From positions 1,148,306-1,212,305 of the forward strand of contig NZ_CP085041.1 in assembly GCF_022026155.1 (NCBI RefSeq): a stretch of DNA of 64,000 bases, given 5' to 3'. Position numbers and translations under genes: made by a program. The first letter of the stretch is position 1. Every line of letters starts with the position of its first letter. Below, piece by piece: positions 691-8,353 of the stretch. The notes beneath the pieces are model-generated. The model did no database searches. It was not told the DNA's origin and saw only the letters and a program-made list of their open reading frames with translations. The stretch comes from Dissulfurimicrobium hydrothermale (lineage in GTDB: Bacteria > Desulfobacterota > Dissulfuribacteria > Dissulfuribacterales > Sh68).

Positions 691-812
691 TTGTTTGTCG
701 GGATGGAAGGTGCAAAAGCCAAACAATCCGCCGCAGTCGATTCTTGAGCGATTTATATGCTTGACAACCTTTCTGAGGGCAAATAGAGTTTTATATTAAA
801 ATTAAACAAGAC

Positions 813-964
813 AACAGGCGCCGCGAGGCTTAATGGGGAACCCTGTGAGAATCAGGGACGGGCCCGCCGCTGTGATCGGGGACGGAGGTCGTAGTAATGC
901 CACTGGCTTAGGCTGGGAAGGCGCGGCCGGTAGATGGATCCGAAAGTCAGAAGACCTGCCTGTT
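813..964 (+). promoter_or_regulatory. Cobalamin (B12) riboswitch aptamer
   Basis: The conserved blocks of the adenosylcobalamin riboswitch occur in order: GGGAA then GTGAGAATC and the GGGACGGGCCCGCCGCTGTG box (about 837-876), a GCCACTGG element at 899-906, GGGAAGGCGCGG at 915-926, and the 3' block AAGTCAGAAGACCTGCC at 944-960. The closing stem P1 can form between 813-819 and 958-964. The aptamer directly precedes a CobN-like gene and an operon ending in CbiK. In this class, ligand binding normally shuts off the downstream genes, so this operon is expected to be on when the cell lacks cobalamin. Confidence 0.95.
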
Positions 965-1049
965 TGATAGCTGCCCTTTCGAGGCAAGGAGTGGGGCGGT
1001 TGCTGTCCTGTTCGGTAGCTGTAGGATTTAAGCGGATAAAAGGGCTATT

Positions 1050-1098
1050 CCGGATCCATGCACCTGTTTTCTTAAGGTGTTGATCCGGTTCTTTATTT
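1050..1098 (+). terminator. Likely expression platform: terminator-like hairpin between riboswitch and cobN
   Basis: A CCGGATC arm at 1050-1056 pairs with GATCCGG at 1082-1088. A second nested pairing is possible inside it (CACCT 1061-1065 with AGGTG 1075-1079). The T-rich run TTCTTTATTT follows at 1089-1098. This arrangement, 85 bases after the aptamer and about 30 bases before the start codon, fits an intrinsic terminator controlled by the riboswitch. No antiterminator pairing was worked out, so the mechanism is inferred. Confidence 0.55.
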
Positions 1099-1129
1099 GG
1101 AGCTCTATTCTATTAAGAGAAGGTGTCTG

Positions 1130-4100
1130 ATGTATTGCTGGATTTTTACTGTCATAACTATTTTTTCATTTTTTATCCCGAAAACCGCCTCGGCCCAAGG
1201 GCTGATGGTCTTTTTTGTCGGGGATTCTGACGTCTATACCTGTCGGAAAGCGTTATCGTCCATTGATCTTCCTGGACTTAAGGTCTTGGTCTTAACTGAA
1301 AAGGATCTCGATGCCCCAAGGGCCTCGGCTGTGCTTTCGTCTATGGATGTAGCTGTCTTGGATGCTATGCAGGGGGGACTTACCGATTGGTTGACCTCGC
1401 ATAAAAATTTAATAAATCCAATGGCTAAGATATATGCCGTCCGTTCGCCAGGCAGATCAAGGGAGTTGAAAGGTCAGGGTGTCATATTCGACGAGACGGT
1501 CAGGAGATACTTCGATTATACGAGTGAAGAAAATATCCGAGGGCTCATTCTATATCTTGCGAAGACCGATTTAGGCGTTCATGTCTCTCCGCCAGCGCCG
1601 GTCGTGCCGCCCGAAGGGGGTTTTTATCACCCCGATGCCCATGCCTTTTTCGCTGACGTCGGCGAATATGTGAACTGGTATAAAAAAACAGGCCATTTCA
1701 ATGACAAAGGTCTCTGGTCACTAGTGGTCGTATTTCCAACTTTTACCGTTGATTCAAGGAAAGGGCCGCTTGACGCCCTTATAAGGGCATATGAGGCCAA
1801 TGGTATAAATACGCTGACACTCCTCTATTCCCCAAAGGACGGGCCATCCGAGATAGACCGTTTGATCTCTGAACCGCCCTTAAATGACGCCCTTGGTTCC
1901 ATCACGAGTTTTGTATTCAGATTCAGCTCTCTCCTTTCCCCTAGACTTTTGAAGGTACTTGAGAAGGCGAATTGCCCCGTTTTCAATCCCCAATATCTTT
2001 TTTACACATCGAGGGACGAATGGATGAAGTCGTCGCAGGGCATGGCCGCCAGCGAGATCACCATGCAGTTCTCCATGCCGGAGCTCTCTGGCCTTGTAGA
2101 ACCTACTGTTGTCGGGGCGAAAGAAGATATGAGCAACGAGGGTCCGATATATGTCCCGATCAAGGATGAGATAGATATACTTGCAAGGCGGGTGGCAAGA
2201 TGGCATGCGCTTAAAGAAAAACCGAATAGGGATAAAAGAATCGTCCTGATTTATTATAACCATGTCCAAGGCAAACAGAATATAGGGGCAAGCTACCTCA
2301 ATGTGGCGAGGAGCATCAAGGTCATTGTTAACCGTCTGAGAGCTGAAGGATATATGATCCCGAAGGATGTAAGCGAGGACGAGATCAAGGACCTTCTTGT
2401 AAAGGTTGGGAGGAATATAGGTTCGTGGGCCCCAGGCGAGCTTGACAGATTTATGGCCAGCAATGATTATGTCGCGATCGACATGAGGCAATATAAGAGG
2501 TGGATAAAGGGAATTGACCAGGGATTCTTAAAGAAGGTCGAAAAGGATTGGGGGAGGCCTGAGGATTCAAAGATAATGACCCGCGACGGGCGGTTTATCA
2601 TCCCATGCATCCGTCTGGGCAATCTGACCATTGCGCCGCAGCCTGTAAGGGGGTTCAGCGATGATCCCGACAAGCTCTATCACAGCACGATTGTCTATCC
2701 GCACCATCAATACGTGGCTTTTTATCTCTGGCTTCAAAAGGTCTTGAGGCCTGATGCCATGATAAGCCTCGGCACTCATGGTACACATGAGTGGCTGCCT
2801 GGGAAGAATGCCGGCCTCTCGGCCAGCTGCTCACCGGAGGTGCTGATAGGCGATATCCCAAATATCTATCCATATATAGTTGATGACGTGGGTGAAGGCA
2901 TCCAGGCCAAGCGCAGGGGGCGGGCTGTGATAATAGACCATGCGGTCCCGCCGTTCAGGCAAGGCGGTCTCTATGCCGAGTATTCAAAGCTCGCAGCCCT
3001 CATAAGTGAGTACGAGGCATCCGATTCGAACGATATAAAGGCCGCAAGGCTTGCACGCATAGGTAAGCTTGCAACAGCGCTCGGGCTCTGTAAGGACCTC
3101 GGGGTAAAAAAAATAGATAAAGACTCAGTCAAGAGACTTGAAGACTATCTCATTGAGATAAAAACCAGCCTTGTACCGTACGGTCTCCATACCTTTGGGG
3201 AATCCCCTAAAGGTGAGGCGCTTGATGAGATGGCCGCAGCTGTTTCATCAGGTGCAAATGGTGGAAAAGATCGCTACCTTAGGCTCATTTCTGAATCGGG
3301 TCGGGATGAACTCGATGCGCTTGTCAATGCCTTAAACGGCGGTTTTATCCCGCCGGCCCCCGGCGGGGATCCGGTTCGGAACCCCGAGAGTCTACCGACA
3401 GGCAGGGACTTCTATGGCTTTGATCCGGAAAAGGTCCCGTCGAAAGAGGCGTGGGGCCAGGGGAAAAAGGCGGCGGAGGAGATTATTGATGGTTATCGAA
3501 AGGCTCACGGCGGCAGGTATCCCGAAAAGACAGCCATAGTCCTCTGGGCCGTCGAGACTATGAGAAACGAGGGGGTGAACGAGGCGACCGCACTCTATCT
3601 CATGGGCATGAGACCCATATGGGATCGTAGGGACAAGGTAAAGGGCGTCGAGCCTATTTCGGCCACAGAATTGAACAGGCCGAGGCTTGATGTGCTTTTG
3701 CAGATGTCTGGTCTTTACAGGGATACCTTCCCATCGGTTGCGCTTCTTCTTGACAAGGCGGTGAAAGAAGCCGCTGTACTCACAGACGTTGAGAACTATA
3801 TCAAGGATCACACCGAGGCGCTTAAAAAGACCCTCATAAAGGCGGGTTATACCAGAGCCGAGGCCGATAAACTCTCGACAGTTCGTATATTTTCCGAAAG
3901 ACCTGGGGCATATGGTACAAAGGTAGCCGAGATGACCGGCGCAAGTGGTCTTTGGGAGGATGATTCAAAGATCGCTCAGGCGTTTATGAACATGGTCTCA
4001 TTCGGTTATTCAAAAGACATGTGGGGGCAGGATGCAAAAGCTGTGTTCCGCTCACAGCTCAAGGATGTAAGCGTCACCGTCCAGTCGCGCTCTTCGAATC

Positions 4101-5110
4101 TCTACGGCCTTATGGACAACGATGACGTCTTTCAGTATCTTGGCGGACTCAATATGGCCGTAAAAAAGATCTCTGGGAAGGCGCCGGATAGCCTCATATC
4201 CGATCAGAAAGATCCTCGAAACAGCCGAATGGAACCCCTTTCCCTAGCTATAGGTACGGAGCTCAGGGCTAGGTATCTGAACCCTGTCTGGATAGAAGGT
4301 ATGAAGAAGGAGGGTTATGCCGGGGCGCGTGAGATGTCTAGGTTTGTGGATAACATGTGGGGGTGGCAGGTGACTACCCCTGAGATGATAGACAGGGCCA
4401 AATGGGACGAGGTCTATTCAGTATATGTGGAAGATAAATACAGGTTGGGACTTAAAGAATTCTTCTCAAGGGAAAATCCATGGGCATATCAGTCTATTAC
4501 TGGGCGGATGCTTGAGGCGGCAAGAAAGGGCTATTGGAAGGCCGACGACAGGACATTGATGAGGCTTTCAAAAGAATATGCACTGGATGTGATTAACAAG
4601 GGTGTGGCGTGCTGTGATCATACATGCAATAATCCCCTTTTAAATCAGATGGTGGTTAATATTATATCCATCCCAGGTGTCATGGCCCCGAAGCTCGTTG
4701 AGCGGTTCAAACTCGCCATACAAAAGGCGGCCGGGAAGACCATCGATGCCCAGGTCAAGCAGAGGATCGATCTCCTCACTAGACTGGGGAATAGGGCCAT
4801 CCTGGTGTCAGATGAAAGGCCTTCATACGATCCGTGGGTCAAGGCCAGGGCAACGATCGGCGAGACGACAGGAAACGATAAAGGAGGGGTTGGAACTGAG
4901 GGCATAAAAGGTACGCATAGCATCCAAAATGCCTCCAAAAAGGCTGATGTCAAGGGGTATAAGGTGAAAGAGCTTGGTCAAAGGGATAAGAAAGAAAGGG
5001 CGGACAAGGCCGATGTCTCTTCATCGGGTGTCCAGTGGGCTGCGGCCGTCTTCGTCATGGGGATTGTGGTGCTCGTAGTCCTTGGGATATACAGACAAAA
5101 AAGGAGATGA
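1130..5110 (+). CDS. Exported, membrane-anchored CobN-like chelatase large subunit
   Basis: About 1326 residues, the length of CobN/BchH-type large subunits, which hold the tetrapyrrole in metal insertion. Family motifs include the THGTHEWLPGK segment and the preceding block around NLTIAPQPVRGF. Two features are unlike cytoplasmic CobN: an N-terminal signal peptide (hydrophobic residues about 4-17 ending ASAQ) and a C-terminal transmembrane helix followed by RQKRR, giving a periplasmic body with a cytoplasmic tail. The ATG at 1130 is chosen because AGAAGG lies six bases upstream and the signal peptide begins there; a TTG at 1097 would add 11 charged residues. It is the first gene after the B12 riboswitch. 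No CobS/CobT or ChlI/ChlD ATPase partner is in the window. Family assignment is firm; the substrate and the direction of metal transfer are unknown. Confidence 0.88.
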   Translation: MYCWIFTVITIFSFFIPKTASAQGLMVFFVGDSDVYTCRKALSSIDLPGLKVLVLTEKDLDAPRASAVLSSMDVAVLDAMQGGLTDWLTSHKNLINPMAKIYAVRSPGRSRELKGQGVIFDETVRRYFDYTSEENIRGLILYLAKTDLGVHVSPPAPVVPPEGGFYHPDAHAFFADVGEYVNWYKKTGHFNDKGLWSLVVVFPTFTVDSRKGPLDALIRAYEANGINTLTLLYSPKDGPSEIDRLISEPPLNDALGSITSFVFRFSSLLSPRLLKVLEKANCPVFNPQYLFYTSRDEWMKSSQGMAASEITMQFSMPELSGLVEPTVVGAKEDMSNEGPIYVPIKDEIDILARRVARWHALKEKPNRDKRIVLIYYNHVQGKQNIGASYLNVARSIKVIVNRLRAEGYMIPKDVSEDEIKDLLVKVGRNIGSWAPGELDRFMASNDYVAIDMRQYKRWIKGIDQGFLKKVEKDWGRPEDSKIMTRDGRFIIPCIRLGNLTIAPQPVRGFSDDPDKLYHSTIVYPHHQYVAFYLWLQKVLRPDAMISLGTHGTHEWLPGKNAGLSASCSPEVLIGDIPNIYPYIVDDVGEGIQAKRRGRAVIIDHAVPPFRQGGLYAEYSKLAALISEYEASDSNDIKAARLARIGKLATALGLCKDLGVKKIDKDSVKRLEDYLIEIKTSLVPYGLHTFGESPKGEALDEMAAAVSSGANGGKDRYLRLISESGRDELDALVNALNGGFIPPAPGGDPVRNPESLPTGRDFYGFDPEKVPSKEAWGQGKKAAEEIIDGYRKAHGGRYPEKTAIVLWAVETMRNEGVNEATALYLMGMRPIWDRRDKVKGVEPISATELNRPRLDVLLQMSGLYRDTFPSVALLLDKAVKEAAVLTDVENYIKDHTEALKKTLIKAGYTRAEADKLSTVRIFSERPGAYGTKVAEMTGASGLWEDDSKIAQAFMNMVSFGYSKDMWGQDAKAVFRSQLKDVSVTVQSRSSNLYGLMDNDDVFQYLGGLNMAVKKISGKAPDSLISDQKDPRNSRMEPLSLAIGTELRARYLNPVWIEGMKKEGYAGAREMSRFVDNMWGWQVTTPEMIDRAKWDEVYSVYVEDKYRLGLKEFFSRENPWAYQSITGRMLEAARKGYWKADDRTLMRLSKEYALDVINKGVACCDHTCNNPLLNQMVVNIISIPGVMAPKLVERFKLAIQKAAGKTIDAQVKQRIDLLTRLGNRAILVSDERPSYDPWVKARATIGETTGNDKGGVGTEGIKGTHSIQNASKKADVKGYKVKELGQRDKKERADKADVSSSGVQWAAAVFVMGIVVLVVLGIYRQKRR

Positions 5111-5116
5111 TTTATC

Positions 5117-5857
5117 ATGGAGCTTAAGGCGCTTATTCTTGGCCTGCTCTTTAGTATAGGGATCTTTGCCTTAAAGAGCGGGACGGGGTTGTATTACGCC
5201 GCAATCCAAAAAAAAGGCATTTTCGGTAAGACGTTGCTCGTCTTGACCTTCATTGCCGTATATGTAGGGCTGTTCGGGCTTTCGTTTTTTGTCTTGGGGC
5301 GGATTAATCTTGTTCGTCATCTCGATTTTATAAACGGTCTTTTGAGGGCCGGGATGCTTATCCATCTTGTCCTGGCAGCATTTACGGCCGTTTGGGGTGT
5401 AGTCCTCCTTAAAGAAGGCAGCCGATACAGCCTTGGCTGGCTCACCCTTTCTGTGCCATGCCCTGTCTGCATGATCGTCATATTTTCGACCAGTGCCTTT
5501 TTGATGAGTATATTTCCGGAGGCCTTGGGCACGGCGTTTTATCTTGCAACCGGCAGTTTTGTGGCCGTCGTTCTCTTTACGTTTTTCGTGATGCATTCGG
5601 CTCGAAAGGGCCTCAAGGGCTCGCCTGAGTCGCTTTTAGGCGGGGCCATGCTGGCGATTTCAGGCTATTTTATCCTGTCCGCCATGATAATCCCTCAGGT
5701 TTCTGATATTGAGCGGATATATCGGCTTTCCATGCAAAATGCAGCACAAAATACAGGTCGTGGCCTTACTACCGTCTTGATCTTGTTTCTTTTGACCGCT
5801 GTCCCAGGATTTTTTTGGACCCTCATGAAGATAAGGAGGATCAAGACTTGGACGTAG
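5117..5857 (+). CDS. DUF2162 family predicted membrane transporter
   Basis: A very hydrophobic 246-residue protein with about seven predicted membrane segments and a conserved-looking CPVC pair in SVPCPVCMIVIF near residues 115-120, which could bind a metal or be redox active. It matches my recollection of DUF2162, a predicted transporter family often found beside CobN-like and ExbB-like genes. It begins six bases after the cobN stop and overlaps the start of the next gene, so it belongs to the same transcript under the cobalamin riboswitch. Likely role: the inner-membrane channel or permease part of a cobalt or corrinoid system, by context only. Confidence 0.7.
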   Translation: MELKALILGLLFSIGIFALKSGTGLYYAAIQKKGIFGKTLLVLTFIAVYVGLFGLSFFVLGRINLVRHLDFINGLLRAGMLIHLVLAAFTAVWGVVLLKEGSRYSLGWLTLSVPCPVCMIVIFSTSAFLMSIFPEALGTAFYLATGSFVAVVLFTFFVMHSARKGLKGSPESLLGGAMLAISGYFILSAMIIPQVSDIERIYRLSMQNAAQNTGRGLTTVLILFLLTAVPGFFWTLMKIRRIKTWT

Positions 5858-6459
5858 AGGCAATCCTCAAATCATTTCTCTATATTATTTCCTCCACCCT
5901 TTTTCTGCCAGTTATCTTTATATTATCCATGCTCGTGATCTGGATATGTATATATTCGGGTTCCTTTTTTGCAGAATGGCTTGAGAGGGCAAGGCTTACA
6001 AGGTGCGATCCATCGGCCTTGCCCGATATTATAAAGAATGGCGGCCGGTTCGATATGCTTTCTCACAGCGTCAAGGGCTTTATCGCCAAGCTCGAAGACT
6101 TAATAGGCAACGGTGTACTTTCATCGCTTTCCGTTGAGAATCTGGTTTACGATTACACCATCAGACTCTCGAAATCCCTTGATCATCTGCGCCTGCTCAT
6201 ACGGCTTGGTCCAGGACTTGGGCTTCTTGGAACCCTTATACCGATGGGTACTGGCCTTTCCGCCTTGAGCCAGGGAGATATGACCAGGCTTTCAGCGGAC
6301 CTTGTCGTGGCCTTTACAACAACCATCGTAGGTCTTGCCATAGGGCTTATGGCCTTTTTCTTTTACACAGTCAAGCGCAGATGGGTGGAAGAAGATATAA
6401 AGAATATCGAACTTACGGCCGAGATACTAATGGAGAGCGATGTCAGAGATGTATCTTAG
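5848..6459 (+). CDS. MotA/TolQ/ExbB-family proton channel protein
   Basis: About 203 residues with an N-terminal membrane helix (about 8-32), a cytoplasmic stretch, and two later helices carrying the family pattern (RLGPGLGLLGTLIPMGTGL at about 120-140, then VVAFTTTIVGLAIGLMAFF). In ExbB, TolQ and MotA these helices form the ring that conducts protons. A TTG at 5848 is preferred because AAGGAGG lies about eight bases upstream; an earlier TTG at 5815 has no such site. It overlaps the DUF2162 gene by 10 bases and the next gene by 20, showing strong translational coupling. Neither TonB nor an outer-membrane receptor is encoded beside it. Confidence 0.85.
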   Translation: MDVEAILKSFLYIISSTLFLPVIFILSMLVIWICIYSGSFFAEWLERARLTRCDPSALPDIIKNGGRFDMLSHSVKGFIAKLEDLIGNGVLSSLSVENLVYDYTIRLSKSLDHLRLLIRLGPGLGLLGTLIPMGTGLSALSQGDMTRLSADLVVAFTTTIVGLAIGLMAFFFYTVKRRWVEEDIKNIELTAEILMESDVRDVS

Positions 6460-6808
6460 ACGAAGGCGTTTTTTCAAAAGGATATTGACAGTAAAAGACG
6501 ATCCGCGCGACGGCGACGATGATCCGCTCGCAGGTCTTGTAAATCTCTTTGATCTAAGCGTAGTATTCATAGTAAGTCTCATTCTTACTCTCTTCTCCGT
6601 CTACAGAATGCAGGACCTCTTTAGTGAAAAGGCAGAATTTACTATCATGAAGCAGTCAAAAGATGGCCGGCTTGAGATCATTACTAAAAAAGGCAAAAAA
6701 GTTACTGCAATGAAGGTCGAGAAAGAGAAGGCCGAGGGCAGGGGGGAGCGTCTCGGCACTGCGTACAGGCTTGAAGACGGGAGTCTTGTCTATGTGCCTG
6801 AACAATGA
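6440..6808 (+). CDS. DUF2149 protein, probable ExbD/TolR-like partner of the TolQ homologue
   Basis: A 122-residue protein with a charged, acidic cytoplasmic head (DDPRDGDDDP at 20-29), one membrane helix at about 39-58, and a short exported tail. Asp38 sits at the start of the helix in NLFDLSVVFIV. That is the position of the proton-carrying Asp of ExbD, TolR and MotB (pattern IDVMLVLLI). The match to DUF2149 is from recognition of the family, and the ExbD analogy is my inference. The ATG at 6440 overlaps the upstream gene; an ATG at 6449 is also possible because the GGAGAG site at 6432 is only two bases from 6440. Confidence 0.7.
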   Translation: MSEMYLRRRRFFKRILTVKDDPRDGDDDPLAGLVNLFDLSVVFIVSLILTLFSVYRMQDLFSEKAEFTIMKQSKDGRLEIITKKGKKVTAMKVEKEKAEGRGERLGTAYRLEDGSLVYVPEQ

Positions 6809-7577
6809 TAGATCAAAGATCCCGATCGTGCTTACCGCCTTTGGAACCACTAGTCGGGCTATGAAGACTTATGCTGTCGTGGATAAGGTCGTTAGGATGC
6901 ATTTCCCTGGGCATGATATACGTTGGGCGTATACTTCTCGCGTAGTCAAAGATTCTGCGCGGAAAGAGGGCAGAGAGATAAAGTCGCCGTCTGAGGTCTT
7001 GAATGACCTGGCTGCTGAAGGCCATTCATGGGCGGTGGTACAGTCCCTTCATCTCCTATGCGGCCATGAGTTTTATCGTATGATTGATGAGATAAGTAAC
7101 CATATTGTACGTGTATCGGTAGGCCTGCCCCTTCTCTCCTCACCGATGGATTATGGGCGCATGGCGGACGTCATCGGTCGTGCATTTCCCGCCTATGATC
7201 TTGAGGCGACGGTCCTGATCGGGCATGGCACGGATCACCCTGCATGGTCGAGTTATCTTGCGTTTTTATGGGTGTTGAGGCGGCGTTTCGGGCCGAGGTT
7301 TTTTATCGGCGTGATAGAAGATGGTATGCCGACCATGGAAGACACGTTAAAGACTGTTATGGAGGCAGGTTTTTTAAAAGTTAGGCTTGTGCCGTTGCTC
7401 CTTGTTGCTGGGCGGCATTTCCAAGAGGATTTGGCTGGAAGCGGCGGCTCCTGGAAATGTATGTTTGAACAGGTCGGGCTGGAGACCGTCGTCCATTGCG
7501 ATGGTATCGGCGAATTGCCCGGGGTGGCCGATGTATTTTGTGGGCATATACAAGATGCCATTGAGGTGGTTCTTTAA
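6792..7577 (+). CDS. cbiK: Sirohydrochlorin cobaltochelatase CbiK
   Basis: About 261 residues, the usual CbiK size. CbiK inserts cobalt into sirohydrochlorin in the anaerobic cobalamin pathway without ATP. Visible family features are the opening VLTAFGTTS, HLLCGHEF near residue 92, and LIGHGTDHPAW near residue 145, holding metal-ligand histidines; LVAGRHFQEDLAG follows near 207. The ATG at 6792 is chosen because GGGAG lies eight bases upstream; it overlaps the previous gene by 17 bases. No signal peptide is visible, so it is cytoplasmic, unlike the exported CbiK of some Desulfovibrio. It is the last gene under the B12 riboswitch, tying the operon to cobalt use. Confidence 0.9.
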   Translation: MCLNNDRSKIPIVLTAFGTTSRAMKTYAVVDKVVRMHFPGHDIRWAYTSRVVKDSARKEGREIKSPSEVLNDLAAEGHSWAVVQSLHLLCGHEFYRMIDEISNHIVRVSVGLPLLSSPMDYGRMADVIGRAFPAYDLEATVLIGHGTDHPAWSSYLAFLWVLRRRFGPRFFIGVIEDGMPTMEDTLKTVMEAGFLKVRLVPLLLVAGRHFQEDLAGSGGSWKCMFEQVGLETVVHCDGIGELPGVADVFCGHIQDAIEVVL

Positions 7578-7616: not shown

Positions 7617-8150
7617 TCATGCACCGTCAAGTCCGCTCTTTTCCTTTTCCATGAAGTAACCTTGTGGATCTTGATAGTAGTACTGCATATCAATGAGCAT
7701 CCCGTGATGGGCCCTTTCTTCGCTCAGCATTTTTTGGAGAAAGGCCTTCTCGGCCTGACCGTCGGCCTCGTCTAGGCGTTTTGCATAAAAGTCCATGGCG
7801 GCCTTTTCGAGTCCGATCCCGATCTGGAGTGCCTCTGTCACGCCTGTTGCTGTTTTGACGGAGGGGCCATACTTCTTGGCCGCCTTTGCAAACGTCTTTT
7901 CAGCATCTATCTGTTTCTGTTCATAGAGCCTGCATGCGGCAGGCCATCCGCCGTTGGATTCCAGAAAATTATTTATCTCCTCTATTTCCTTCTTATGCCC
8001 TGTTTCATCTTCCAGGATGGCGAGGAATATCTCTTTCCCTGGTCCGTCAGGGCAGTTGTCGGCGGCCTTGCGGAAAAATTCCAGTTCTTTTTCTTCCATC
8101 CGCATGGCGGCACATAGCATGTCCGTTACCCTGTTATGTTTTCGAGCCAT
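7617..8150 (-). CDS. Ferritin-like (rubrerythrin-type) di-iron protein
   Basis: A 177-residue, all-helical protein with two repeats of the di-iron carboxylate pattern: EEKELEFF with EDETGHKKEIE in the first half, and GLEKAAMDFY with SEERAHHGML in the second. This is the ferritin-like four-helix bundle of rubrerythrins, which reduce peroxide or store iron. The C-terminal rubredoxin domain of classical rubrerythrin is absent. The start at 8150 is chosen because AAAGGAGG lies six bases upstream; an in-frame GTG or ATG further out would add 15 basic residues. It is convergent with cbiK. Probable role: oxidative stress protection. Confidence 0.82.
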   Translation of the reverse strand: MARKHNRVTDMLCAAMRMEEKELEFFRKAADNCPDGPGKEIFLAILEDETGHKKEIEEINNFLESNGGWPAACRLYEQKQIDAEKTFAKAAKKYGPSVKTATGVTEALQIGIGLEKAAMDFYAKRLDEADGQAEKAFLQKMLSEERAHHGMLIDMQYYYQDPQGYFMEKEKSGLDGA

Positions 8151-8353
8151 ACCCATCCTCCTTTGCCTGCCGGTCTGTTTATATTTTGAGACCATGGTTT
8201 TGTTTATCTGTTTTTAAAACCTAACATAATTTGCATCGTTATGTCTAGAGCAGGATATTTGGGTTCGAAAGGATCGCAGGATTTTATTGAAATATCCGGT
8301 AACGCCATGTAGAGTCTGTGAGATTAAGAATAACTGTCGTGGGGGATTTTGTT

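Follow-up and report, generated by a model that had tools for sequence, protein, structure and literature searches.

The window analysed here is a 64,000-nucleotide stretch of the Dissulfurimicrobium hydrothermale genome (a single contig of 2,025,450 bases), starting at base 1148306, and the system under study is a cobalamin (B12) riboswitch followed by five genes on the plus strand. These encode, in order, a CobN-like protein, a DUF2162 protein, a channel of the MotA_ExbB family, a DUF2149 protein, and CbiK, and adjacent genes either overlap or are separated by gaps of at most 6 bp. The first-pass annotation, made from the letters alone, had described a riboswitch ahead of five overlapping or near-touching genes, in agreement with the RF00174 and Pfam matches listed in Table 1. 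The channel gene probably starts at TTG 5848, with AAGGAGG ahead of it, in a reading frame open from 5815, and the CbiK gene probably starts at ATG 6792 in a frame open from 6771. The gene set is non-random, since the same neighbors recur in dozens of independent loci. Sites resembling the promoter-like sequence 5' of the riboswitch occur across the region at chance level.

Table 1. Features of the riboswitch operon in window coordinates. Residues of the CobN-like protein are numbered from ATG 1130 (Met1), and residue counts refer to an alignment of 83 CobN-like proteins encoded at DUF2149 loci.
Feature	Position	Strand	Details
Promoter-like site 5' of riboswitch	761-789	+	TTGACA-17-TAGAGT, 10/12; weak evidence
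Cobalamin riboswitch aptamer (RF00174)	799-977	+	105.4 bits vs gathering threshold 31.5; E 2.3e-25; full-length model match
CobN-like gene	1097-5110	+	TTG start with KRR n-region; alternative start ATG 1130
H550 codon	2777-2779	+	Equivalent of catalytic HmuS His-538 (GTHG); GTH His in 83/83
D998-D999 codons	4121-4126	+	CobN-type Asp pair; D998 in 83/83, D999 in 82/83
CCDHTC motif	4610-4627	+	Between chelatase body and C-terminal helix; C1161 in 81/83, H1164 in 76/83, C1166 in 81/83
SSGVQW, transmembrane helix and basic tail	5021-5107	+	Mean column identity 0.54
DUF2162 gene	5117-5857	+	Start ATG 5117; Pfam 119.9 bits
PCPxC codons of DUF2162	5456-5470	+	Invariant motif
TolQ/ExbB/MotA-type channel gene	5848-6459	+	PF01618, 48.7 bits vs cut-off 22.9
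DUF2149 gene	6440-6808	+	Start ATG 6440; Pfam 103.5 bits
Asp38 codon of DUF2149	6551-6553	+	Unchanged in 50 sequences; Glu in Runella
CbiK gene	6792-7577	+	PF06180, 166.1 bits vs cut-off 26.2

The CobN-like protein contains the class I chelatase domains (Pfam CobN-Mg_chel, 1076.6 bits) and scores under both NCBIfam CobN equivalog cut-offs (973.8 vs 1619 and 636 vs 822); the closest solved structure is that of HmuS (9d26; phmmer, E 7.5e-155). Its N-terminal hydrophobic segment ends in ASA-Q, a predicted export signal, and a second hydrophobic segment, SSGVQWAAAVFVMGIVVLVVLGIYRQKRR, lies at the C-terminus, as the first-pass annotation had proposed. The protein thereby shares with HmuS the predicted combination of a signal or N-terminal helix with a C-terminal membrane anchor. 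The window protein shows the D-x-D-D pattern known from solved CobN structures, and the CCDHTC motif is a candidate metal site. Mean column identity in the C-terminal SSGVQW region compares with 0.22 in the linker preceding the helix, 0.27 in the signal peptide, and 0.56 over the whole protein. Such conservation of the C-terminal helix is compatible with contact to a partner, and a sorting signal would look alike.

DUF2162 is a predicted inner-membrane protein, in which the CPxC part of the invariant motif is intramembrane; its AlphaFold2 model has a predicted local distance difference test score of 89.8. DUF2149 consists of one transmembrane helix and a beta domain, and the single helix with its invariant Asp38 resembles ExbD. 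The operon CbiK has no signal peptide and is thus a predicted cytoplasmic sirohydrochlorin cobaltochelatase, although its score is under the stricter NCBIfam equivalog cut-off (135.1 vs 400).

DUF2149 was found in 37 of 297 genomes of the phylum (Desulfobacterota), and gene neighborhoods were compared in these 37 genomes and in 80 named loci, the two sets partly overlapping. Of the 102 DUF2149 genes that have a CobN-like neighbor or sufficient flanking sequence for this assessment, 101 lie no more than 6.5 kb from a CobN-like gene, a count conditioned on DUF2149 rather than on CobN, because the loci were found via DUF2149. The pairing of the CobN-like protein with TolQ and DUF2149 is thus near-obligate. 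The linkage to genes of B12 salvage and synthesis is also recurrent. A frequent gene order is TonB receptor - DUF2162 - TolQ - DUF2149 - protein of about 690 residues - CobN-like, often with CbiK. A gene of BtuF-CbiZ size is present in 38 of the 61 SSGxQW-type loci, and all scanned proteins of about 690 residues (46/46) combine Peripla_BP_2 with CbiZ. Most of these BtuF-like/CbiZ fusions start with a signal-like hydrophobic segment (for example L058:6655-8724), which implies hydrolysis of corrinoid side chains by an exocytoplasmic CbiZ. TonB receptor genes occur at 50/61 SSGxQW loci; their top NCBIfam scores are to hemin-type models, all below cut-off, and do not decide between heme and B12.

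Among the 24 Desulfobacterota operons whose upstream DNA is readable, 18 have a B12 riboswitch no more than about 310 bp from the first gene (a count combined by hand), and the named loci L116, L119, L146, L080, L086, and L098 show the same arrangement. No B12 riboswitch was found in a search over three hmu operons and the Runella operon described below. Two loci (L045 and L126) have the gene order of the window followed by cbi genes, and the nearest relative in the phylogenetic tree (L053, identical to L125) has the order DUF2162-TolQ-DUF2149-CobN-CbiK-CbiA; all of these run on into corrin-synthesis genes. In Desulfospira joergensenii (L096:2-14246), two complete CobN/DUF2162/TolQ/DUF2149 sets stand side by side, with a clearly diverged pair of DUF2162 proteins.

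A different membrane protein is observed on a Runella slithyformis plasmid (L163, 15819-34085), where the order is TonB receptor - NicO/DsbD-like membrane protein - TolQ - DUF2149 - CobN and the core lies within a hypABF...hypCDE cluster, a nickel/hydrogenase context. The NicO/DsbD-like protein, which scores just under cut-off, fills the slot equivalent to that of DUF2162, and this one case hints at a metal permease slot. A plasmid of Azospirillum brasilense has NikR near its DUF2149 operon, and a nickel link by way of NikR was considered; it is undercut by a B12 riboswitch directly 3' of DUF2149 (L168:9390-9607), which precedes a binding-protein/permease/TonB-receptor set. The nickel context is therefore confined to Runella.

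Elsewhere in the D. hydrothermale genome there are three further B12 riboswitches: one ahead of the anaerobic cbi operon, one beside a TonB receptor gene in a locus with a BtuFCD-like transporter, ExbB-ExbD-TonB, a split CobN, and ChlI-ChlD, and one ahead of metE-like genes. The split CobN (L010:6291-10234, genome positions 1656291-1660234) is encoded by two open reading frames of 808 and 506 residues with an ATGA overlap, has neither signal nor anchor, and its genes are overlapped by those of ChlI and ChlD. Its active-site loop reads CCCYFGTHGG where CobN has D-x-D-D, and the two parts may make up a two-subunit chelatase whose site is rich in Cys. Of the two CbiK genes in the genome, that of the anaerobic cbi operon (L012:8137-9129) encodes a signal-like N-terminus and resembles periplasmic CbiK. 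Hence the biosynthesis operon carries no cytoplasmic CbiK, and the riboswitch operon encodes the only cytoplasmic CbiK found, which agrees with cobalt delivery to de novo synthesis. Other open reading frames observed in the genome are RuBisCO- and phosphoribulokinase-like (L013), and convergent with the operon, outside it (window 7617-8195, minus strand), lies a rubrerythrin/ferritin-like one that weakly resembles encapsulin-associated ferritins.

In Porphyromonas gingivalis and relatives, CobN, MotA/TolQ/ExbB, and DUF2149 genes are annotated as hmuS, hmuU, and hmuV (PMC10434189), and the HmuSTUV system of P. gingivalis has been described (PMC13227078). The heme de-chelatase HmuS of Bacteroides thetaiotaomicron is bound to the membrane and converts heme to protoporphyrin IX in a reaction that depends on NADH but not on ATP; its structure was determined by cryo-electron microscopy (EMBO J 2025; PMC12583661), and the predicted periplasmic BtuS1/2 of B. 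fragilis are required for the use of heme iron (PMC6460266). In addition, the CobN on plasmid pSZ77 of Trichlorobacter (Geobacter) lovleyi was remarked on in 2012 as lacking CobS/CobT and as cobalamin-associated, with role unknown (PMC3403914). The statement in the first-pass annotation that no biochemical description was known must consequently be corrected.

We compared the window protein with three reference HmuS proteins from plasmid hmu operons (Bacteroides finegoldii, Prevotella nigrescens, and Aureibacter); a PF09919 search of 148 genomes from the phylum to which Sphingobacterium belongs matched the starting genome alone. All three reference proteins have HGR at the His-254 site, a heme ligand, and ALSLDHVYEFMGG at His-1209 (Asp1208-His1209), whereas the window protein has FRFSS and LMDNDDVFQYLGG, respectively. 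The equivalent of His-254 is thus Phe265 (Phe or Lys-Phe at this position), and the LSLDHxxEFMGG motif of HmuS is altered by the replacement of His-1209 with Asp and Glu-1212 with Gln. The methionine-rich insertion is also missing (40 residues in the window protein and about 40 in its branch vs 151-340 in the three HmuS proteins). The equivalent of Met-79, likewise a heme ligand of HmuS, is conserved as Met80 (Met in 78/83 aligned proteins). In a FastTree phylogeny of 33 CobN-like proteins, rooted on the split CobN of the same genome, the three HmuS proteins are united in one clade with full support. The window protein falls in a separate clade, where it clusters with L053, L046, and L070 (support 1.0). 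An identity of DUF2162 with HmuT was rejected, as there was no Pfam match and the best E value with our profile was 0.03. Judged by these sequences, the operon belongs to a branch separate from the HmuS systems.

The best explanation of these observations is that the operon represents a cobalt/B12 branch of the hmuS-type systems; it looks like a cobalt/B12 counterpart of the recently described heme-iron-stripping system of gut bacteria. On balance, we lean toward a chelatase system coupled to the proton-motive force that handles cobalt or corrinoid outside the inner membrane. The body of the CobN-like protein would act on the outer face of this membrane, and TolQ with DUF2149 would form an ExbB/ExbD-like stator, through which the proton-motive force would move the CobN-like protein, the motion being passed probably via its conserved C-terminal helix. 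This stator would take the place of the ATPases CobS/CobT or ChlI/ChlD. The machine may strip cobalt from, or less likely insert cobalt into, a corrinoid or other tetrapyrrole imported at B12 shortage. DUF2162, by its invariant intramembrane CPxC, may handle or pass metal or electrons at the membrane, and CbiK, fed by the machine, would insert cobalt into sirohydrochlorin in the cytoplasm. We propose cobalt removal as the specific reaction only tentatively; by analogy it is the reading nearest HmuS, with insertion, exchange, and pure corrinoid handover as alternatives. The first-pass annotation had likewise placed the CobN-like protein outside the cytoplasm, where a proton channel would stand in for CobS/CobT, and had suggested a link to B12 or cobalt. 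Its proposal of a proton channel coupled to an exocytoplasmic CobN-like protein is reinforced by the 101/102 co-occurrence, the additional ExbB-ExbD genes in 14 loci, the position of ChlI/ChlD beside another CobN, and the ATP independence of the homolog HmuS (PMC12583661). The riboswitches and CbiZ reinforce the link to B12 or cobalt.

Several observations weigh against this interpretation. Chemically, cobalt is very difficult to extract from an intact corrin. A TonB receptor gene is absent from the window operon, and CbiZ was sought in the genome and not found, so that the corrinoid link in this organism rests on the riboswitch, CbiK, and the relatives of the operon. A CbiM-type Co/Ni importer is encoded elsewhere in the genome, and cobalt supply therefore need not depend on the operon. 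Six of the 24 operons have no adjacent riboswitch (L048, L051, L062, L064, L065, and L072, the last with one 4 kb away). Profile alignment of the DUF2149 helix with the Asp helix of ExbD was weak (probability 2.3%), Foldseek with the DUF2149 model gave no confident fold match, including to ExbD, and with the DUF2162 model gave no confident match and none in PDB.

A doubtful extension of the preferred reading is that CobN-like protein, TolQ, and DUF2149 constitute a general machine for metal tetrapyrroles outside the cytoplasm, driven by the proton-motive force, whose membrane partner is swapped according to the metal: DUF2162 for cobalt/B12, HmuT for heme iron, and, in the one case of Runella, a NicO-like permease for nickel/hydrogenase. 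On this reading, the cobalt-branch enzyme would be the first known to remove or exchange corrinoid cobalt, and also the first chelatase with an ExbBD-like motor in place of an AAA+ ATPase.

Alternatively, the CobN-like protein could be a large corrinoid-binding protein, whose movement by the proton-motive force releases or passes on the corrinoid with no metal moved. The difficulty of extracting cobalt from corrin would favor such handover, as would the uptake and salvage genes among the neighbors (TonB receptor, BtuF domain, CbiZ) and the similarity of the HmuS head and neck domains to periplasmic binding proteins (PMC12583661). However, the active-site residues H550 and D998 are strictly kept, the CbiK neighbors and the CCDHTC motif suggest metal handling, and the characterized homolog HmuS moves metal, and we regard uptake devoid of chelation as unlikely.

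It has been proposed that HmuU/HmuV energize a TonB-dependent receptor (PMC10100974, PMC12583661). If TolQ-DUF2149 did only this and the CobN-like enzyme worked independently, the general analogy with ExbB/ExbD and the TonB receptor genes flanking most such operons would be accounted for. Nevertheless, we favor the CobN-like protein over TonB as the client of the motor, because 14 loci have, besides TolQ-DUF2149, canonical ExbB and ExbD genes on the same strand at a distance of no more than 6 kb, as in the T. lovleyi run TonB receptor-DUF2162-TolQ-DUF2149-CobN-ExbB-ExbD-TonB-TonB receptor; because DUF2149 almost never occurs apart from a CobN-like gene; because TonB and receptor genes are absent from the window operon and ExbB-ExbD-TonB is encoded elsewhere in the genome; and because DUF2149 is found in archaea that have no outer membrane. 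The archaeal occurrence is based on Methanosarcina acetivorans, a control of our search, and on a published table in which clusters of HmuV and HmuS are given for Methanomicrobia (PMC10100974). A function restricted to TonB thus appears decidedly unlikely.

That the protein is a heme de-chelatase like HmuS, its B12 control being incidental, is very improbable. HmuS is the best structural match, the Met-79 position is conserved, and nearby receptors score highest to hemin-type models, but identity with HmuS was rejected on the tested residues (His-254, His-1209, Glu-1212, and the Met-rich insertion), HmuY and HmuT are missing, and both regulation and neighbors are B12-related. Finally, an ordinary cobaltochelatase subunit partnering the ChlI/ChlD ATPases present in the genome can practically be dismissed, as the window protein is predicted to be exported and anchored, the periplasm has no ATP, and ChlI/ChlD overlap the split CobN.

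In the hmu literature, HmuT and HmuV are held to be diagnostic of heme transport (PMC10100974), and the remaining CobN-like groups are listed as having no clear function (PMC12583661). A branch that is switched by B12, has an active site of the CobN type, and neighbors CbiZ contradicts this status for DUF2149 (HmuV) and suggests, for some of those groups, a function that can be put to the test. If a chelatase is indeed driven by the proton-motive force, this would be a new use of an ExbB/ExbD-type stator and would explain how class I chelatases act where ATP is absent. The system also has a bearing on how anaerobes acquire cobalt and corrinoids.

Among known systems, HmuSTUV of Bacteroidota is likewise built on a protein of the class I chelatase fold that is exported and anchored at its C-terminus, encoded together with TolQ- and DUF2149-type proteins, and the His-538 equivalent is retained in the window protein. 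In contrast, the window branch has a context of B12 riboswitch, CbiK, and CbiZ in place of HmuY/HmuR, differs at the residues and insertion compared above, and has DUF2162, with no detectable homology, in the place of HmuT. The pSZ77 locus of T. lovleyi shares the order TonB receptor-DUF2162-TolQ-DUF2149-CobN, behind two B12 riboswitches in tandem, whereas its CobN lies on a different branch in the phylogeny of CobN-like proteins and differs in the motif of the C-terminal helix, ExbB-ExbD-TonB follows directly downstream, and no CbiK is listed in the part of that locus that was compared. The aerobic cobaltochelatase CobNST and the magnesium chelatase ChlHID have the same class I chelatase fold, with the D-x-D-D signature as in CobN, yet these systems are cytoplasmic and ATP-driven, and the window gene has no adjacent CobS/CobT or ChlI/ChlD. 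With the ExbB-ExbD and TolQ-TolR stators the operon shares a MotA_ExbB family channel and a one-helix partner with an invariant carboxylate, although neither sequence nor fold searches recognize DUF2149 as ExbD, and the proposed client here is a chelatase rather than TonB or TolA.

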